56,165 nt of DNA from Clostridia bacterium (GTDB lineage: Bacteria > Bacillota > Clostridia > TANB77 > CAG-465). Position numbers and translations under genes: made by a program. Location: the NCBI GenBank assembly GCA_028684095.1, contig JAQUGQ010000011.1, positions 1 to 56,165 of the forward strand, written 5' to 3'. Positions 36,263 to 52,435 of the stretch are shown piece by piece (the stretch's first letter is position 1; every line of letters begins with the position of its first letter). The notes below the pieces were generated by a model. The model did no database searches, was not told where the DNA came from, and saw only the letters and a program-made list of their open reading frames with translations.

Positions 36263-37468
36263 GTGAGTAGAAAAAAAGGTATATCATTAATAGTATTAGT
36301 AATAACAATAATAGTTATAATAATACTAGCAGGAGCAGTAATATTAAGCTTAGCAAATAACAATCCAATAGAATCAGCAAATGAAGCAATGTTTAAATCA
36401 AATATATCAGAATATAATTCAGAGCTTGCACTGGCTGTATCAGATGAGTATTTGAAAAACAGTTCCTTTGAACCAAGTACATTTAATGTAGGGGTTTGGG
36501 ATGGAACTGGTGATGGAACTGGAACAATAAAAGAATATATAACAAGTATAACACCAGAAGACGGAGCAAAATTTGTGATACAAAATAGTAAGTTAGTATA
36601 TGTAGGAGAAGATAATACTGAAAGATTTTGGGTTACAGGAATGGAAGTAGTAGCAGTAAATGTAATAGCAACAGAAAATTCAACAGTAAATGGACAAGCG
36701 GCAACATATCAAAATCCAATTATACCAACAGGATTTAAAGCAATAAATGATGGAACAGTATGGCCAACAGATTGGAATACAGGACTAGTAATAGAAGATG
36801 CAAGTGGTAATCAGTTTGTATGGGTACCAGTAGACGGAGAAAATGTGTCATATGCAAAAAACTTTACTTATCCAACAAACTACGGTGCGACATCTTTAAA
36901 TACAACAGATGATGAATTACCAGATGAAGTAACAAGTGAAACAAATCAAATAACAAAATATGGTGGATTCTATATAGCAAGATATGAAGCAGGAAATTCA
37001 TCTAATATTTTAGTAAGTAAAAAAAATGCAACAGTATGGAGTAATATTAGTTATGATAATGCAAAATTAAATTCAGAATTAATGTATACTACATCAGAAG
37101 TAAAAAGTGGGATTATAACAGGAACTCAGTGGGATACAACAATGGAATGGATAAATGATTCTGGAAAAAGTGTAATAGATAGTAGAACATGGGGAAATCA
37201 TTCTAATTCATTAAATCCTGCAGATGTAGTAGGATATGGAAGTAGACAAGTAGCAGGATATAGTGAATATTGGAAATCAAATAATATATATGATCTAGCA
37301 GGAAATGTATGGGAATGGACAAATGAGATTTATAGCTCTTACCGTATTTGTCGAGGAGATGACTTTGCATTTGGTGGTAATGAAGTTCCAGCTTCTTTTC
37401 GTGACAATCATCTTCCAAATGACGTAGATAGTGACATATCTACCCGTATAGTACTTTATATATTGTAG
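36263..37468 (+). CDS. Array gene A: prepilin-like N-terminus + FGE/C-type-lectin variable protein
   Basis: 401 aa. The N-terminus (KKGISLIVLVITIIVIIILAG, about 3-24) resembles a type IV prepilin/pseudopilin signal and helix but lacks the Glu at +5, so it may act as a membrane anchor. The C-terminal half is an SUMF1/FGE-sulfatase-type C-type-lectin fold: GNQFVWVPVDGE, YGGFYIARYEAG, QWDTTMEWI, IYDLAGNVWEWTNE (about 354-367). The last 43 codons (from 37340) form a putative DGR variable region ending TRIVLYIL. GTG start behind GGAGGT. First gene of the A-B-C cluster. Presumed surface ligand binder, by inference. Confidence 0.8.
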   Translation: MSRKKGISLIVLVITIIVIIILAGAVILSLANNNPIESANEAMFKSNISEYNSELALAVSDEYLKNSSFEPSTFNVGVWDGTGDGTGTIKEYITSITPEDGAKFVIQNSKLVYVGEDNTERFWVTGMEVVAVNVIATENSTVNGQAATYQNPIIPTGFKAINDGTVWPTDWNTGLVIEDASGNQFVWVPVDGENVSYAKNFTYPTNYGATSLNTTDDELPDEVTSETNQITKYGGFYIARYEAGNSSNILVSKKNATVWSNISYDNAKLNSELMYTTSEVKSGIITGTQWDTTMEWINDSGKSVIDSRTWGNHSNSLNPADVVGYGSRQVAGYSEYWKSNNIYDLAGNVWEWTNEIYSSYRICRGDDFAFGGNEVPASFRDNHLPNDVDSDISTRIVLYIL

Positions 37469-37564
37469 CTATTATTTGTTAAGAAAGTGTTTTTTTAAAA
37501 ATTATATGATTTAACAACTAGTTTTAGATTAATATATTTATTCAAAAAAATGGAGGTATTTTGA

Positions 37565-38860
37565 GTGAAAATAAAAAAAGGTATATCATTAATAGTATTA
37601 GTAATAACAATAATAGTTATAATAATATTAGCAGGAGCAGTAATATTAAGCTTAGCAAATAACAATCCAATAGAATCAGCAAATGAAGCAACGTTTAAAT
37701 CAAATATATCAGAATATAATTCAGAGCTTGCACTGGCTGTATCAGATGAGTATTTGAAAAACAGGTCCTTTAATACAAGTACATTTAATGCAAGTGTTTG
37801 GGATGGAACTGGTGATGGAAATGGAACAATAAAAGAATATATAACAAGTATAACACCAGAAGATGGGGCAAAATTTGAAATACAAAATAGTAAATTAGTA
37901 TATGTAGGAACAAATCAAATAGAAAAGGATTATCTTACAGAAATTGGAATAGCAAATGGATCTCAAATTGTAATTGGATTAGGAGTAAATGTAATAGCAA
38001 CAGAAAACACAACAGTAAATGGAGAAGCGGCAACATGTCAAAATCCAATTGTGCCAAAAGGATTTAAAGCAATAAATGATGGAACAGTATGGCCAACAGA
38101 TTGGAATGAAGGACTAGTAATAGAAGATTCAAGTGGTAATCAGTTTGTATGGGTACCAGTAGATGGAGAAAATGTACCATATACAAAATGGTGTACAACA
38201 GGATTTACATATGCAGATACAACAGATGACACATTACCATCAGGAATAATTGAAATAGATCAAATAAATTCTTACGGTGGATTTTATATAGCAAGATATG
38301 AAGCAATGTTTGATTATAATGGAGGAAGCATAAGAGTAGCAAGTAAAAAGAGTACAAATCTTACAACAATAGATTGGGTAGCAACAAGAGATAATGCACA
38401 TACAGGATATGTCTGGAATTTTGTAAACTATACAGAGTCAAAATCATATGCAGAAAATATGGCACAAAGTTATGGATATGATTCAGCAAGTGTAACAACA
38501 AACTTAATAACAGGAACTCAGTGGGATACAGCGATGGAATGGATAAATGATTCTGGAAAAAGTGTAACAGATAGTACAACATGGGGAAATTATATCAATT
38601 CAGTATCACCAGCAAATTTACCAGAAATGGGATTTTTACAAATATCAGGATTTAGTGAATATTGGAAAGCAAATAATATATACGATTTAGCAGGAAACAC
38701 AAGGGAATGGATACATGAAATATATATGACTCAATTTGTGAATCGTGGTGGTGGTTGTGGTAATGATGGTGTTATTAATCCAGCTGCTTACCGTAGTAGT
38801 AGAGTTGAATCTACTTCTAATAACTATTTGACATTTCGTATAGCACTATATATAAAATAA
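37565..38860 (+). CDS. Array gene B: prepilin-like + FGE/C-type-lectin variable protein
   Basis: 431 aa, paralogue of gene A with a nearly identical first 60 codons. It is longer between the lectin landmarks: it has the MFDYNGGSIRVASKKS insertion (about 250) that is also present in gene F. The lectin core is NQFVWVPVDGE, GGFYIARYEA, QWDTAMEWI, IYDLAGNTREWIHE. The putative variable end (about 38730-38860) reads ...NRGGGCGNDGV-- PAAYR-- LTFRIALYIK, with its end codon changed (AAA-TAA rather than TTG-TAG). GTG start with GGAGGT; 96 nt from A with no strong promoter, so probably cotranscribed. Confidence 0.8.
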   Translation: MKIKKGISLIVLVITIIVIIILAGAVILSLANNNPIESANEATFKSNISEYNSELALAVSDEYLKNRSFNTSTFNASVWDGTGDGNGTIKEYITSITPEDGAKFEIQNSKLVYVGTNQIEKDYLTEIGIANGSQIVIGLGVNVIATENTTVNGEAATCQNPIVPKGFKAINDGTVWPTDWNEGLVIEDSSGNQFVWVPVDGENVPYTKWCTTGFTYADTTDDTLPSGIIEIDQINSYGGFYIARYEAMFDYNGGSIRVASKKSTNLTTIDWVATRDNAHTGYVWNFVNYTESKSYAENMAQSYGYDSASVTTNLITGTQWDTAMEWINDSGKSVTDSTTWGNYINSVSPANLPEMGFLQISGFSEYWKANNIYDLAGNTREWIHEIYMTQFVNRGGGCGNDGVINPAAYRSSRVESTSNNYLTFRIALYIK

Positions 38861-38873
38861 GGAGGTATTTTAA

Positions 38874-40097
38874 ATGAAAGAAAATAAAGGTATATCACTT
38901 ATAGTATTAGTTATAACAATAATAGTTATAATAATACTAGCAGGAGCAGTAATATTAAGCTTAGCAAATAACAATCCAATAGAATCAGCAAATGAAGCAA
39001 CGTTTAAAACCAATGTAGCGGAATACAATTCGGAACTTGCAATGGCTATAGCAAATGAATATATACAAGATAATTCTTTTGATTCAGCAACATTTAACGC
39101 AGGAGTATGGGATGGAACTGGTGATGGAACTGGAACAATAAAGGAATATATAACAAGTATGTCTGAAGTAGATGCAGTAAAATATGAAATACAAAGTAGT
39201 AAATTAGTATATGTAGGAACAAATCAAATAGAAAAGGATTATCTTACAGAAATTGGAATAGAAATTATATTAGGAGTAAATGTAATAGCAACAGGAAACG
39301 CAACAGTAAATGGAGAAGTAGCAACATATCAAAATCCAATTGTGCCAACAGGATTTAAAGCAATAAATGATGGAACAGTATGGCCAACAGATTGGAATAC
39401 AGGACTAGTAATAGAAGATTCAAGTGGTAATCAGTTTGTATGGGTACCAGTAAATGGAACAGATGTATCGTATGCTAAAAACTTTACTTATCCATCATAT
39501 TACAGTGCAACATCTGGTAATACATCAGATGATACATTACCAGATGAAGTAACAAGTGAATTATCACAAATAACAACTTATGGAGGATTTTATATATCAA
39601 GATATGAAGCGGGAAAAGAAGGTGTTAGTACATTAGTAAGTAAAAATCATGCAATAGTATGGAATCATATTAATTATAATGATGCAAAAGCAAAAGCAGA
39701 GTCAATGTTCGATACAGCAGAAATTAAAAGTGGATTAATGACTGGAGCACAATGGGATACAACATTAGAATGGTTAAATGATTCAGGTAAGATTGTAACA
39801 AATAGTATTACTTGGGGAAATCATTATAATTCAGTATTTCCTGCAAATGTAGCAGGATACGGAAGTGTACAAGTAGCAGGATTTAGTGAATATTGGAAAG
39901 CAAATAACATATATGATATAGCAGGAAACACATGTGAATGGACAACTGAGGTATATAACTCTGAACGTGTTTTTCGTGGCGGTGACTATAGTTATAATGG
40001 TAGTGACAGCGGCTATCCAGCAGCTTTTCGTTATAATGGTGTTACTGGTATTCAATACGATTCATTAGCTTTCCGTGAGGTACTTTATATATTGTAG
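38874..40097 (+). CDS. Array gene C: prepilin-like + FGE/C-type-lectin variable protein
   Basis: 407 aa, paralogue of A and B; 13 nt after B with SD AAGGAGGT, so clearly in the same transcript. N-terminal KGISLIVLVITIIVIIILAG helix; lectin core NQFVWVPVNGTDV, GGFYISRYEAG, QWDTTLEWL, NIYDIAGNTCEWTTEV. The putative variable region (about 39962-40097) is rich in NNT/NNC codons and reads RGGDYSYNGSDSG-PAAFRYNG-VTGIQYDSLAFREVLYIL. Presumed surface-displayed ligand-binding protein. Confidence 0.8.
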   Translation: MKENKGISLIVLVITIIVIIILAGAVILSLANNNPIESANEATFKTNVAEYNSELAMAIANEYIQDNSFDSATFNAGVWDGTGDGTGTIKEYITSMSEVDAVKYEIQSSKLVYVGTNQIEKDYLTEIGIEIILGVNVIATGNATVNGEVATYQNPIVPTGFKAINDGTVWPTDWNTGLVIEDSSGNQFVWVPVNGTDVSYAKNFTYPSYYSATSGNTSDDTLPDEVTSELSQITTYGGFYISRYEAGKEGVSTLVSKNHAIVWNHINYNDAKAKAESMFDTAEIKSGLMTGAQWDTTLEWLNDSGKIVTNSITWGNHYNSVFPANVAGYGSVQVAGFSEYWKANNIYDIAGNTCEWTTEVYNSERVFRGGDYSYNGSDSGYPAAFRYNGVTGIQYDSLAFREVLYIL

Positions 40098-48906: not shown

Positions 48907-50445
48907 ATGAAAACTAATATAAAGAGTGGTATATCTTTAATTATACTTGTTATAGCAATTATAATAATAATTATACTGGCAAGTGCTATAATTATATCAG
49001 TAGTAAATAATAATCCGATATCACAAGCAAAAAAAATGACATTTATTAATGATTTGAGGAATTTTGAAGATGAACTTAATTCATATCATTCTGATCAAAG
49101 TATATATGTACAAAAAGGTTATAATTCTTCAAGTTTGCAAGCAGATGAAAATAATATAACATATAATGGGATAGTGGATAGTAATAAAACAATTAATGAT
49201 ATAATACTATTATTAGGAAGTAATTCTAAGTATGATGGACTATTTGAAGTGTTAGATGGTAAATTAGTATATAAGGGTACTGATGAAAATGAAAAAGAAT
49301 GGGCAGAAGAAATAGGAATAGTAACAATAATTGCTGCTAGTGAAATGTTTGTTGTAAATCAACCAGTGTTATCGGCAGGAATGACAGCAAAAAAATGGAA
49401 TGGCAGTTCATGGGATACAGTATCAGATCCAGATAATGATACATCGTGGTATGATTATGAAAATAAAGAATGGGCAAATGCACAAACAGAAGATGAAAGT
49501 ATGTGGGTATGGATACCACGATATGAATATCAAATACCAACACCACATAGTTTAACAGCACAAACAATAGCAGTAAACTTTTTAATTAATACTGAGACAA
49601 CAGCATCAACTGGGTATACAGTGCATCCAGCATTTACATTTGGAAGTACAGAGCTTACAGGAATATGGGTAGCAAAATTTGAAGCAAGTGGAACTGCAAG
49701 TGCAGTAGATGTAAAACCTGGAATAGCATCACTTCGAAGTATAACAATAGATACAATGTTTACAGCATGTAGAAATATGGAAACAATAAATGGGGCAAGA
49801 TATGGCTGGGGGACAAGTGGAACAGGAATAGATACTCACTTAATGAAAAATACAGAATGGGGAGCAGTGGCATATCTTTCAAGTAGTGCATATGGAAAAA
49901 CAGATGAGGTATGGATAAATCCAAATAGCGATTATTTAACAGGTCAAGCAGGAACAAGTGTTAGTGCTGATCCAACAACATCAACATATTCATATGATGA
50001 TTTAATATATGGTATAAATGCAAGTACAACAGGAAATATATATGGGGTATATGATATGAACGGTGGATCATGGGAATATACAGCATCATATGTTGCTAAT
50101 GGACATGCAAATTTGACAACATACGGCTTAAGTTTAGTAAGTGCAATAGGACAATATAAAGATGTATATTTACAAGGCTCGAGTGATACAAGACTATTAA
50201 ATTACTCAGCAAATTCAGATAAAAAAGGTGACGCAGTATATGAGACATCAACTACTGATATCGGTGCAACATCATGGTACGGTGACTACTCGGTCATGCC
50301 TTCTTCTAGCGTTCCATTTTTATATCGTGGCGGTCGTGCTTCCAATTCGACTGGTGCTGGGGTGTTCAGTTTTAACGACAACAGTGGTACTTTACAAAGT
50401 TTTATAGGGTTCCGCCCCGTACTCGTGCTTTCGGGCGCACTTTAA
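48907..50445 (+). CDS. Array gene E: divergent prepilin-like + FGE/C-type-lectin variable protein
   Basis: 512 aa, second subfamily. N-terminal SGISLIILVIAIIIIIILAS helix, a middle spacer, then a larger lectin-fold domain: SMWVWIPRYEYQIP (about 198-211), IWVAKFEAS, NTEWGAVAYLSSSAYG (about 317-332), NIYGVYDMNGGSWEY (about 375-389). The C-terminus GGRASNSTGAGVF... IGFRPVLVLSGAL (about 473-512) has the closing IGFRPV motif typical of DGR target proteins. The last 110 nt or so are GC-richer and Y-ending, and share a 30-nt block with the orphan copy downstream. SD GGGGGT. Likely exported and surface-displayed. Confidence 0.8.
   Translation: MKTNIKSGISLIILVIAIIIIIILASAIIISVVNNNPISQAKKMTFINDLRNFEDELNSYHSDQSIYVQKGYNSSSLQADENNITYNGIVDSNKTINDIILLLGSNSKYDGLFEVLDGKLVYKGTDENEKEWAEEIGIVTIIAASEMFVVNQPVLSAGMTAKKWNGSSWDTVSDPDNDTSWYDYENKEWANAQTEDESMWVWIPRYEYQIPTPHSLTAQTIAVNFLINTETTASTGYTVHPAFTFGSTELTGIWVAKFEASGTASAVDVKPGIASLRSITIDTMFTACRNMETINGARYGWGTSGTGIDTHLMKNTEWGAVAYLSSSAYGKTDEVWINPNSDYLTGQAGTSVSADPTTSTYSYDDLIYGINASTTGNIYGVYDMNGGSWEYTASYVANGHANLTTYGLSLVSAIGQYKDVYLQGSSDTRLLNYSANSDKKGDAVYETSTTDIGATSWYGDYSVMPSSSVPFLYRGGRASNSTGAGVFSFNDNSGTLQSFIGFRPVLVLSGAL
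50324..50436 (+). repeat. Putative DGR variable region of gene E with IMH-like block
   Basis: From RGG to the FRPVLVLSG end. The final 30 nt (50407-50436, GGGTTCCGCCCC...TCGGGC) are about 70% GC and match 50679-50708 with one mismatch, while the upstream 80 nt differ at many positions. This constant 3' block after a variable part is how an initiation-of-mutagenic-homing site looks. Confidence 0.65.
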
Positions 50446-50577
50446 TAGTGGCTCTGTACTTTGACTCTCTATAATGGGACAAAAATAGAGCAGGCACACA
50501 ATAATTAGAATGAAGTAAAATAAAATTGATATTTCAAACATTTGTGGATACAGAGATTAAACTGAATTTGCCTTATT

Positions 50578-50750
50578 TGAGCAATCCGTTCTTCATATAT
50601 GGTGGTAACTATAGCAATACGATTAATGCTGGGGTGTTTAATTTTAATAGCAACAATTGGAATGCAAACAGCAATATCGGGTTCCGCCCCGTGCTCGTGC
50701 TTTCGGGCACTTCGACACAAAAGAAAATTTATATATTTTCGACTTTGTAG
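50578..50750 (+). pseudogene. Orphan Asn-rich lectin C-terminus (variable-region or template-like copy)
   Basis: An open frame reading ...SNPFFIYGGNYSN... with 10 Asn codons (AAC/AAT) in about 30, ending in IGFRPVLVLSG and then running on to a stop at 50748-50750. Homologous to the C-terminus of gene E (SSVPFLYRGG...IGFRPVLVLSG) but without the rest of the gene and without an RBS. AAY richness is typical of DGR template repeats; see the findings for why it is not a clean template for gene E. Best described as a detached 3' cassette. Confidence 0.6.
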
Positions 50751-50814
50751 GGTATTTCTTTACGGAGAATACTGAATAGATTGTGTCAAAAAAGCTAAAA
50801 TTTGATAGAAACAA

Positions 50815-50856
50815 CTAAAATTGTACTGATTTTTCAATTAGTACAATTTTTTATTT
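50815..50856 (+). terminator. Terminator downstream of the orphan cassette
   Basis: AAAATTGTACT / AGTACAATTTTTTATT stem with T tail. Between here and 51088 there are two more weak hairpins (AATATATGTT/AACATATATT and AACTAATT/AATTAGTT) and no gene. Confidence 0.75.
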
Positions 50857-51087
50857 ATAATCTTGGAAAAATCCAATAAAAAATCATAACAAAATAACCC
50901 AATCATATTTGGTTAAAAAATTATTAAAATCCTGTTAAAGTTGAATTCCTAATAATTTTATAGTACAATATTTTTACGTTAAAAACAAAAAAAATATATG
51001 TTAAAGTGTTTCACACCCCAACATATATTATAAACTAATTAAAAAATTAGTTCGATTTTTTTATCTGAGTAAATTATTATCTTATTT

Positions 51088-51705
51088 CTAAAATATATTT
51101 TTAATTATTTCTAAAAACTTAAAAGAATAAGTATTATTTACATTTTTTTCTTTTAATAAATTTTTATCAGTGTATATATTAGCTATACCTGGTAATATGT
51201 TTTCAAGTCCTTCTAGAGTTCTTATATTTTCCTTGTTTGGAAATATGAGATTCCAATAGTTTTTTCCTTTAGCATCTCCTAAAAGTATTTGTATGCTATC
51301 ATAAGATCCTTCATCCATTGTAGTATATATATTTTTCTTTTCAGTGTAATTTATTTTACCAAGTTTAGCTGTAGAAACATAATTTATGTTATTTTCCTTT
51401 AGTTCACTATTTGAAATTAATAATATTTCATCCATATTATTATATATAGTATTATAAGTTTCTTGTTTTGTAAAGTTTTGTTTAAATATTACATTATTAA
51501 TATAATTTTCTATCTTGTCAGCTATTTTTAATTTTATAATTTGGTCATCTATACTATCACTATTTGCTACAACATGTAACCTGAAATAATTTTCATTTGT
51601 TTTAGTTTTTTTATACAATCCAATAGAAGTATAAAGTGAAAGTAATATTATAGAAAAAATACATATAGTTAATGGAATATTTATATTTTTAAATTTGTTT
51701 TTCAT
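51088..51705 (-). CDS. spoIIR: Stage II sporulation protein R
   Basis: 205 aa. N-terminal membrane/signal segment (about 11-28), then the SpoIIR landmarks FRLHVVANSDSIDDQIIKLKIADKIENYI (about 41-69), TMDEGSYDSIQILLGDAKGKNYWNLIFPN (about 128-156). In Bacillus it is secreted by the forespore under sigmaF and triggers SpoIIGA processing of pro-sigmaE in the mother cell. Shows the organism has the endospore pathway. The C-terminus after about 160 is shorter than in Bacillus. SD AGGTGG. Confidence 0.88.
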   Translation of the reverse strand: MKNKFKNINIPLTICIFSIILLSLYTSIGLYKKTKTNENYFRLHVVANSDSIDDQIIKLKIADKIENYINNVIFKQNFTKQETYNTIYNNMDEILLISNSELKENNINYVSTAKLGKINYTEKKNIYTTMDEGSYDSIQILLGDAKGKNYWNLIFPNKENIRTLEGLENILPGIANIYTDKNLLKEKNVNNTYSFKFLEIIKNIF

Positions 51706-51866
51706 TTTAAACCACCTACATATATTATGAGATATTTTATAAAAAACAAACTATATAAAATTGGCAAAAAAGATCTTAAAAAATCATAAATTAGTGTCAT
51801 ATTTTAATTCAAAGTATAATACTCTTTTTTTAGTCAAAAGAGTATAAAATTAGGCAAAATATTTTG

Positions 51867-51895
51867 TTGACATCTAATTTTAGGTATGTTAAAAT
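51867..51895 (+). promoter_or_regulatory. Promoter of the gene at 51922
   Basis: TTGACA (51867-51872), 17-bp spacer, TAAAAT (51890-51895). It overlaps the frame's first ATG (51886), which therefore cannot be the start. Confidence 0.7.
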
Positions 51896-51921
51896 TATCA
51901 CATAAGGGGATGATACAAAAG

Positions 51922-52356
51922 ATGAATAAAATTAAGTTATGTTGTTTTACAGTTAACTACACACATTCGTGTATAATAGCTAACAACTTTATTTCAAATG
52001 AGTTAAGTAATGTAAAGGTGGTATATATTAATGAAAAAAGTGAAAAGAAAAAATTAAAAAATATAATTTCCAGATTTTATAAAAAGATGCAAGATCACTC
52101 GTTTTTTACCGAGTGGTTAAATGAAGGAATTATTAATGATTATGAAAAAGAGACTTTTGTTTTTGTGGTAAATGGCAAAGAATCATTTATAAACAAAGTA
52201 AATAAATATTTGGATTTAAATGAATTCAATGGATATATTATTAATTGTTATGAGATATTTGATATATCTGTTAAAGTGGAGAAAATAATAGAAGAACACA
52301 ACTATTATATAAACACAACTGGATTAGTAAAAAAAGAGACTTTCAAAATAGGTTAA
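51922..52356 (+). CDS. Hypothetical cytoplasmic protein next to spoIIR
   Basis: 144 aa, not recognised. Alpha/beta composition without membrane segments: IKLCCFTVNYTHSCIIANNFI, VKVVYINEKS, FVFVVNGKESFINKVNKYL, YIINCYEIFDISVKVEKII. ATG 51922 or 51910 are possible starts behind AAGGGGA; 51886 is excluded by the promoter. Divergent from spoIIR across 180 nt. Role unknown; linkage to sporulation would be only positional. Confidence 0.55.
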   Translation: MNKIKLCCFTVNYTHSCIIANNFISNELSNVKVVYINEKSEKKKLKNIISRFYKKMQDHSFFTEWLNEGIINDYEKETFVFVVNGKESFINKVNKYLDLNEFNGYIINCYEIFDISVKVEKIIEEHNYYINTTGLVKKETFKIG

Positions 52357-52392
52357 AATAGAATACACCTTTTTATAAATATTATATATATG

Positions 52393-52435
52393 TGAACTGT
52401 ATACAATCCTTATACGGTTCATTTTATATTTTTAA
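52393..52435 (+). terminator. Terminator of the hypothetical gene
   Basis: TGAACTGTATA / TATACGGTTCA stem with one mismatch, then ATTTTATATTTTT. 52436-52551 contains only the start of the gene F leader. Confidence 0.7.

Follow-up and report, generated by a model that had tools for sequence, protein, structure and literature searches.

An orphan template repeat followed by a covarying RNA scaffold in a probably degenerate DGR of a Clostridia bacterium

The window, that is, the whole stretch of 56,165 nucleotides analysed here, comes from the genome of a gut bacterium of the Clostridia and contains an open reading frame, gene E (48907..50445, + strand), that codes for a variable protein (VP). 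The product has a pseudopilin-like hydrophobic N-terminus, from which we would expect it to be surface-exposed, and an FGE-type C-type-lectin-like C-terminal domain, of which the AlphaFold model is of low confidence (pLDDT 34). The matches to known families are weak, at 0.041 for GspG and 0.0028, under the cut-off, for Pfam FGE-sulfatase. The top PDB match of a profile of the gene E family is 5vf4, the FGE-type C-type-lectin DGR variable protein TaqVP; this match is also weak (E = 0.0011) and leaves the VR outside the matched stretch, and gene E differs from TaqVP in its pseudopilin-like N-terminus. Downstream, on the minus strand and outside the element, lies spoIIR (51088..51705; Pfam Spore_II_R, 8.9e-27).

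Near the 3′ end of gene E is a GC-rich block of 30 nt (50407..50436) that recurs at 50679–50708, with both copies on the + strand and 29 of 30 positions identical, the single difference being A/G. The first-pass annotation had reported this match and the GC-rich character of the block amid AT-rich surroundings, and both observations hold (the window background is 20–33% GC). Allowing up to 3 mismatches, the block occurs twice in the window, where 100 shuffles give an expectation of 0.00, and no third copy is found within that limit across the 1.46-Mb genome. The sequences 5′ of the two copies, previously described as hypervariable, are indeed diverged but are not unrelated: a gap-free homology extends upstream for ~117 nt, in one copy into the C-terminal domain of gene E and in the other into an open stretch that stands free. 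A phage origin was considered and rejected; gene E has no match in phage records and the exact block is absent from viral contigs.

This homology places a VR at 50290..50436 (+ strand, 5′ limit approximate), at the 3′ end of the FGE-type-domain gene and ending 9 nt ahead of the gene E stop codon. The block at its 3′ end is IMH/(GC)14-like, a role that would follow by analogy with the element of BPP-1. The tract after it, GCACTTTAATAGTGGCTCTG (50437..50460, + strand), is common to one related genome, G010, and to the C4 paralogue. It forms a weak, short hairpin (−3 kcal/mol), which the copy of a second relative, G047, does not share, where BPP-1 has a GC-rich hairpin of 7–10 bp after the VR.

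The second copy of the block closes a cassette (about 50565..50708, + strand) that stands free, outside any full-length gene, and is open, coding for the end of the gene E domain. Directly 5′ of it lies a leader, GATTAAACTG (50555..50564, + strand), which is found with at most 2 mismatches immediately before the template repeat (TR) in 16 of 16 loci inspected. We defined 22 template-A columns by the presence of A in at least 70% of a set of nine clean TRs, all taken from other genomes. The cassette has A at 21 of these and the gene E VR at 9 (p = 9.8e-5), whilst in the remaining columns the two have a similar A content (14/107 and 13/107, respectively). Five other VRs of the gene E type (type 1) in this genome carry A at 6–12 of the 14–22 template-A columns scored, and the cassette peptide aligns N-for-N with the clean TRs. 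With the cassette as template, mismatches over 147 nt fall at 22/37 A positions and at 27/110 non-A positions (p = 1.4e-4); with the roles swapped there is no A bias (p = 0.52). In the central 77 nt only, the excess at A is weak (14/28 vs 15/49, p = 0.075). The downstream cassette is thus itself the predicted template, with gene E carrying the VR.

The differences at non-A positions indicate that gene E was not recently written by exactly this template. At such sites the consensus is kept in the VR rather than the TR in 7 cases and in the TR rather than the VR in 10, so either both have drifted or an earlier template wrote gene E. They also raise the question of whether both copies are VRs whose true template is a third copy elsewhere; the earlier proposal had been that such a copy, beside an RT gene, would be the true template. 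The genome search gave no such copy, the RNA scaffold described below occurs once in the genome, and the A content of the cassette is that of a template, so that we disfavour a distant template and regard it as improbable. A truncated copy of the 5′ part of the TR, ~90% identical over 59 nt, was observed downstream of another type-1 VP (L029, G000:C4:8374–8326, minus strand); it lacks the remaining TR and the scaffold.

The block codes for GFRPVLVLSG, a conserved end of FGE-type domains that is seen in paralogues, and the first-pass annotation had pointed out that it might be just a conserved coding motif. In that case the cassette, being open and encoding the end of the same domain, would be nothing more than the 3′ part of a gene E paralogue left by duplication. 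This explanation fails because the second copy lies outside any full-length gene, shares the A positions of the clean TRs and precedes a scaffold that adjoins RTs in relatives; moreover, the DNA identity of the block covers silent sites too, whereas the remainder of the repeat has diverged. We therefore disfavour the paralogue-fragment explanation, which we judge highly unlikely.

Searching 56 related genomes with the DNA of the cassette led to loci in G010 and G047. The order in G010 is a VP with its VR, the TR and then, on the opposite strand, RT, Avd and a MutS domain I protein (RVT_1, 1.7e-18; bAvd, 5.1e-20; MutS_I, 3.4e-11), and the Avd scores 82 bits against DivGenRetAVD, for which the cut-off is 80. 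The TR and VR of G010 differ at 13/28 A positions and at 0/103 non-A positions, an A-only pattern that is the mark of a working DGR. The layout of VP, TR and convergent RT is shared by G010, G047 and 12 loci of gut Clostridia genomes, the latter obtained by RT profile search, and the TR of the relatives lies ~0.1–0.5 kb past the RT stop on the opposite strand. DGR cassettes in which the RT runs against TR and VR follow a known pattern (G5, PMC6642488). The window locus resembles inverted-RT DGRs of the G010 kind in having VP, VR and TR on one strand, where the relatives add a convergent RT operon with Avd, and in its A-biased TR–VR changes, common leader and common TR scaffold. It differs in being without RT, Avd and MutS_I and in the drift of its TR and VR at non-A sites. 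The interpretation of the repeats as an IMH-like DGR VR/TR pair is supported by the intact relatives, the A-column tests and the TR-RNA scaffold, with the roles of the two copies corrected.

Two further observations were made in the relatives. The small MutS domain I protein lies within the RT-Avd operon of G010 (C5, L053/L120, minus strand), and a MutS domain I-like protein also adjoins the G047 RT. In G047 there is also a second VP-TR pair, with differences of the A type (L121, C16). It does not share a contig with the RT locus, and its TR is nearly identical to the one adjoining the G047 RT.

Immediately 3′ of the TR, we have found an RNA scaffold of 87 nt (50708..50794, + strand; covariance model E = 1.3e-11) with a closing helix at 50714–50719/50782–50787 and a hairpin at about 50750–50773. 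An alignment of 14 loci, the window among them, has 13 pairs in two helices; 99.5% of the cells are paired, and in 10 of the 13 pairs both sides have changed. In none of 500 shuffles did the paired cells, the both-side changes or the covariation score reach the level of the scaffold. Since the alignment used for these counts had also served to pick the helices, the slid control is in part favoured by the design, and the both-side changes are the stronger sign. In the window copy a compensatory C-G replaces U-A in the closing helix, and the fold has a z of −2.73. The covariance model has one match in this genome, the window copy, and matches in 8 of the 56 genomes; in Rfam the scaffold matches no family, giving a chance match only. 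Further downstream is an AU-rich hairpin with a T-run (50817..50850, + strand; −13.4 kcal/mol, z −5.57), not called by the consensus scan, which might terminate the TR RNA. The RT-Avd of BPP-1 is recruited by a folded spacer that lies 3′ of the TR (PMC12875486), and by analogy we infer a similar recruiting role for the scaffold in the window. Degenerate DGR loci have already been described, and the covarying TR scaffold is the newest part of these findings.

The scaffold also bears on whether the cassette could be, instead of an RNA template, a silent donor for gene conversion as in pilS or vls. A donor of this kind would fit with an incomplete homologous copy lying 3′ of a surface gene that is expressed, and with the frameshifts in some VRs of the genome. 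Gene conversion, however, has no role for an A-specific pattern or a covarying RNA scaffold, and in relatives the corresponding homologous loci are complete DGRs whose changes are confined to A; we consider it very improbable. The 3′ end of gene E and the cassette form a VR/TR pair, with the scaffold placed as it is after the TR in intact relatives and with no RT adjoining, and our confidence in the identification as DGR VR and TR is high.

The enzymes are missing from the locus. The position of the relatives' convergent RT operon is occupied by spoIIR, and a search of 50445–52647 for traces of RT, Avd and MutS_I gave nothing significant. No RT was found in the assembly with RVT_1. A profile of the relatives' DGR RTs located two stop-containing remnants, at C15:35178–35596 and C21:72044–72232, both ending short of the YxDD catalytic part; that on C15 is downstream of a VR of the second type discussed below and has a weak Avd-like stretch (E = 0.04) ahead of it. 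With no intact DGR-type RT in the assembly, the element is a degenerate and not a complete DGR. The assembly is a draft of 38 contigs with 96.7% completeness, and since the type-2 TR is likewise missing from it, an RT could lie in a gap. A search of two other genomes of the genus gave no DGR RT. The RTs of one same-genus genome, G001, were examined as candidates and rejected: two have a QG-type rather than an SQ-type motif together with YADD, like group II intron RTs, the third is of another type, and none has the DGR motif. Across the order, the RT profile matches 155 of 287 genomes and, among the copies listed, many are partial or contain stops. RT decay thus looks common in the order, and the frequency of stop-bearing and partial copies suggests repeated gain and loss.

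A gap in the assembly would leave room for an element still active in trans, with an intact DGR RT on an unassembled or unbinned contig and the TR as one of several serving RT-less VP-TR modules. The modules would then be split trans-acting units, a scaffolded TR travelling with each variable gene and one RT acting from elsewhere, and the window template would be usable. The intact helices of the window scaffold, including the compensatory C-G pair, are consistent with this, as are the second VP-TR pair of G047 away from its RT contig, the lack of a type-2 TR in the draft and a precedent in Thiohalocapsa (PMC10907252). Against them stand the completeness of an assembly in which the only DGR-type RTs are fossils, the absence of a DGR RT from the two other genomes of the genus and a TR and VR that differ at 25% of their non-A sites. 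We regard continued activity in trans as a doubtful possibility, and the more general picture of split trans-acting units as tentative to a similar degree.

The window very probably holds, instead, the VP-TR half of a degenerate DGR that has lost its RT and is probably silent, leaving a frozen repertoire of VR genes. Silence is suggested by the missing RT operon and the decayed RTs elsewhere, together with the non-A divergence, within the limits of a draft assembly; our confidence that the loss of the RT is permanent is moderate. In the mechanism that we propose, an RNA starting in or just after gene E would once have carried the TR and scaffold, possibly ending at the hairpin at 50817–50850. 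With an RT-Avd complex bound to the scaffold, the TR would have been copied into cDNA, errors arising opposite A, and this cDNA would have replaced the VR of gene E, anchored at the common GC-rich block. The RT-Avd-MutS_I operon would since have been lost at the window locus and the DGR RTs would have decayed at the two other loci, so that gene E and the other VR-bearing genes may now be a fixed set of surface proteins.

The locus shares with the BPP-1 DGR a GC-rich element at the 3′ end of the VR, a structured spacer 3′ of the TR and changes at template adenines. In BPP-1, avd, TR and RT all run in one direction, whereas the RT of the window's relatives is convergent. Degenerate loci with VR genes, sometimes with TR homology, and an absent or broken RT have been described in Thiohalocapsa PB-PSB1, Treponema denticola and cyanobacteria (PMC10907252, PMC4891356, PMC7517822). 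Unlike these, the orphan TR in the window retains its RNA scaffold, and many targets persist in a 1.46-Mb genome with no intact RT in the assembly. The locus is therefore a degenerate DGR with an unusually clear orphan template. The covarying scaffold, which has no Rfam counterpart, provides a search model for templates that needs no RT and can thus find orphan templates missed by RT-first surveys.

The repertoire of VR genes extends well beyond gene E. Genes of its type occupy 11 places in the genome, counting gene E and the cassette, and a second type, ending in SFRVVLYIL, is found at about 30 places, some of them fragmentary. Gene E has 55 matches in the genome overall, many of them just to the pseudopilin-like start, and there are dozens more pseudopilin/FGE-type genes, many with DGR-style VRs. 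With hhalign, the alignment of the two VP families was limited to the last 36 columns (probability 23%). In the type-2 VRs the mean entropy is 1.37 bits at the A columns of four relatives' TRs, compared with 0.41 (p = 1.6e-11), which indicates that the type-2 genes were DGR targets too. The assembly yielded no type-2 TR: the 14 matches to a type-2 query are at VP genes or a contig end. That query was built with A at the variable sites and is circular for VRs, so the evidence is taken from the entropy test on the relatives' TRs instead. In a lineage with dozens of DGR-type surface genes and the rewriting enzyme absent or broken, the question becomes when and why hypermutation was switched off and its products kept. 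Within the window, second-type pseudopilin/FGE-type genes with SFRVVLYIL-like ends lie at 36269–40094 and 52648–55458, both clusters, and at 55845–56120, and their VRs are variable at the relatives' template-A columns. At L008, L067/L090 and L087/L093 the VRs lose their reading frame close to the 3′ end, as though through unrepaired indels, and a similar VR frame shift is seen in the relative G036.
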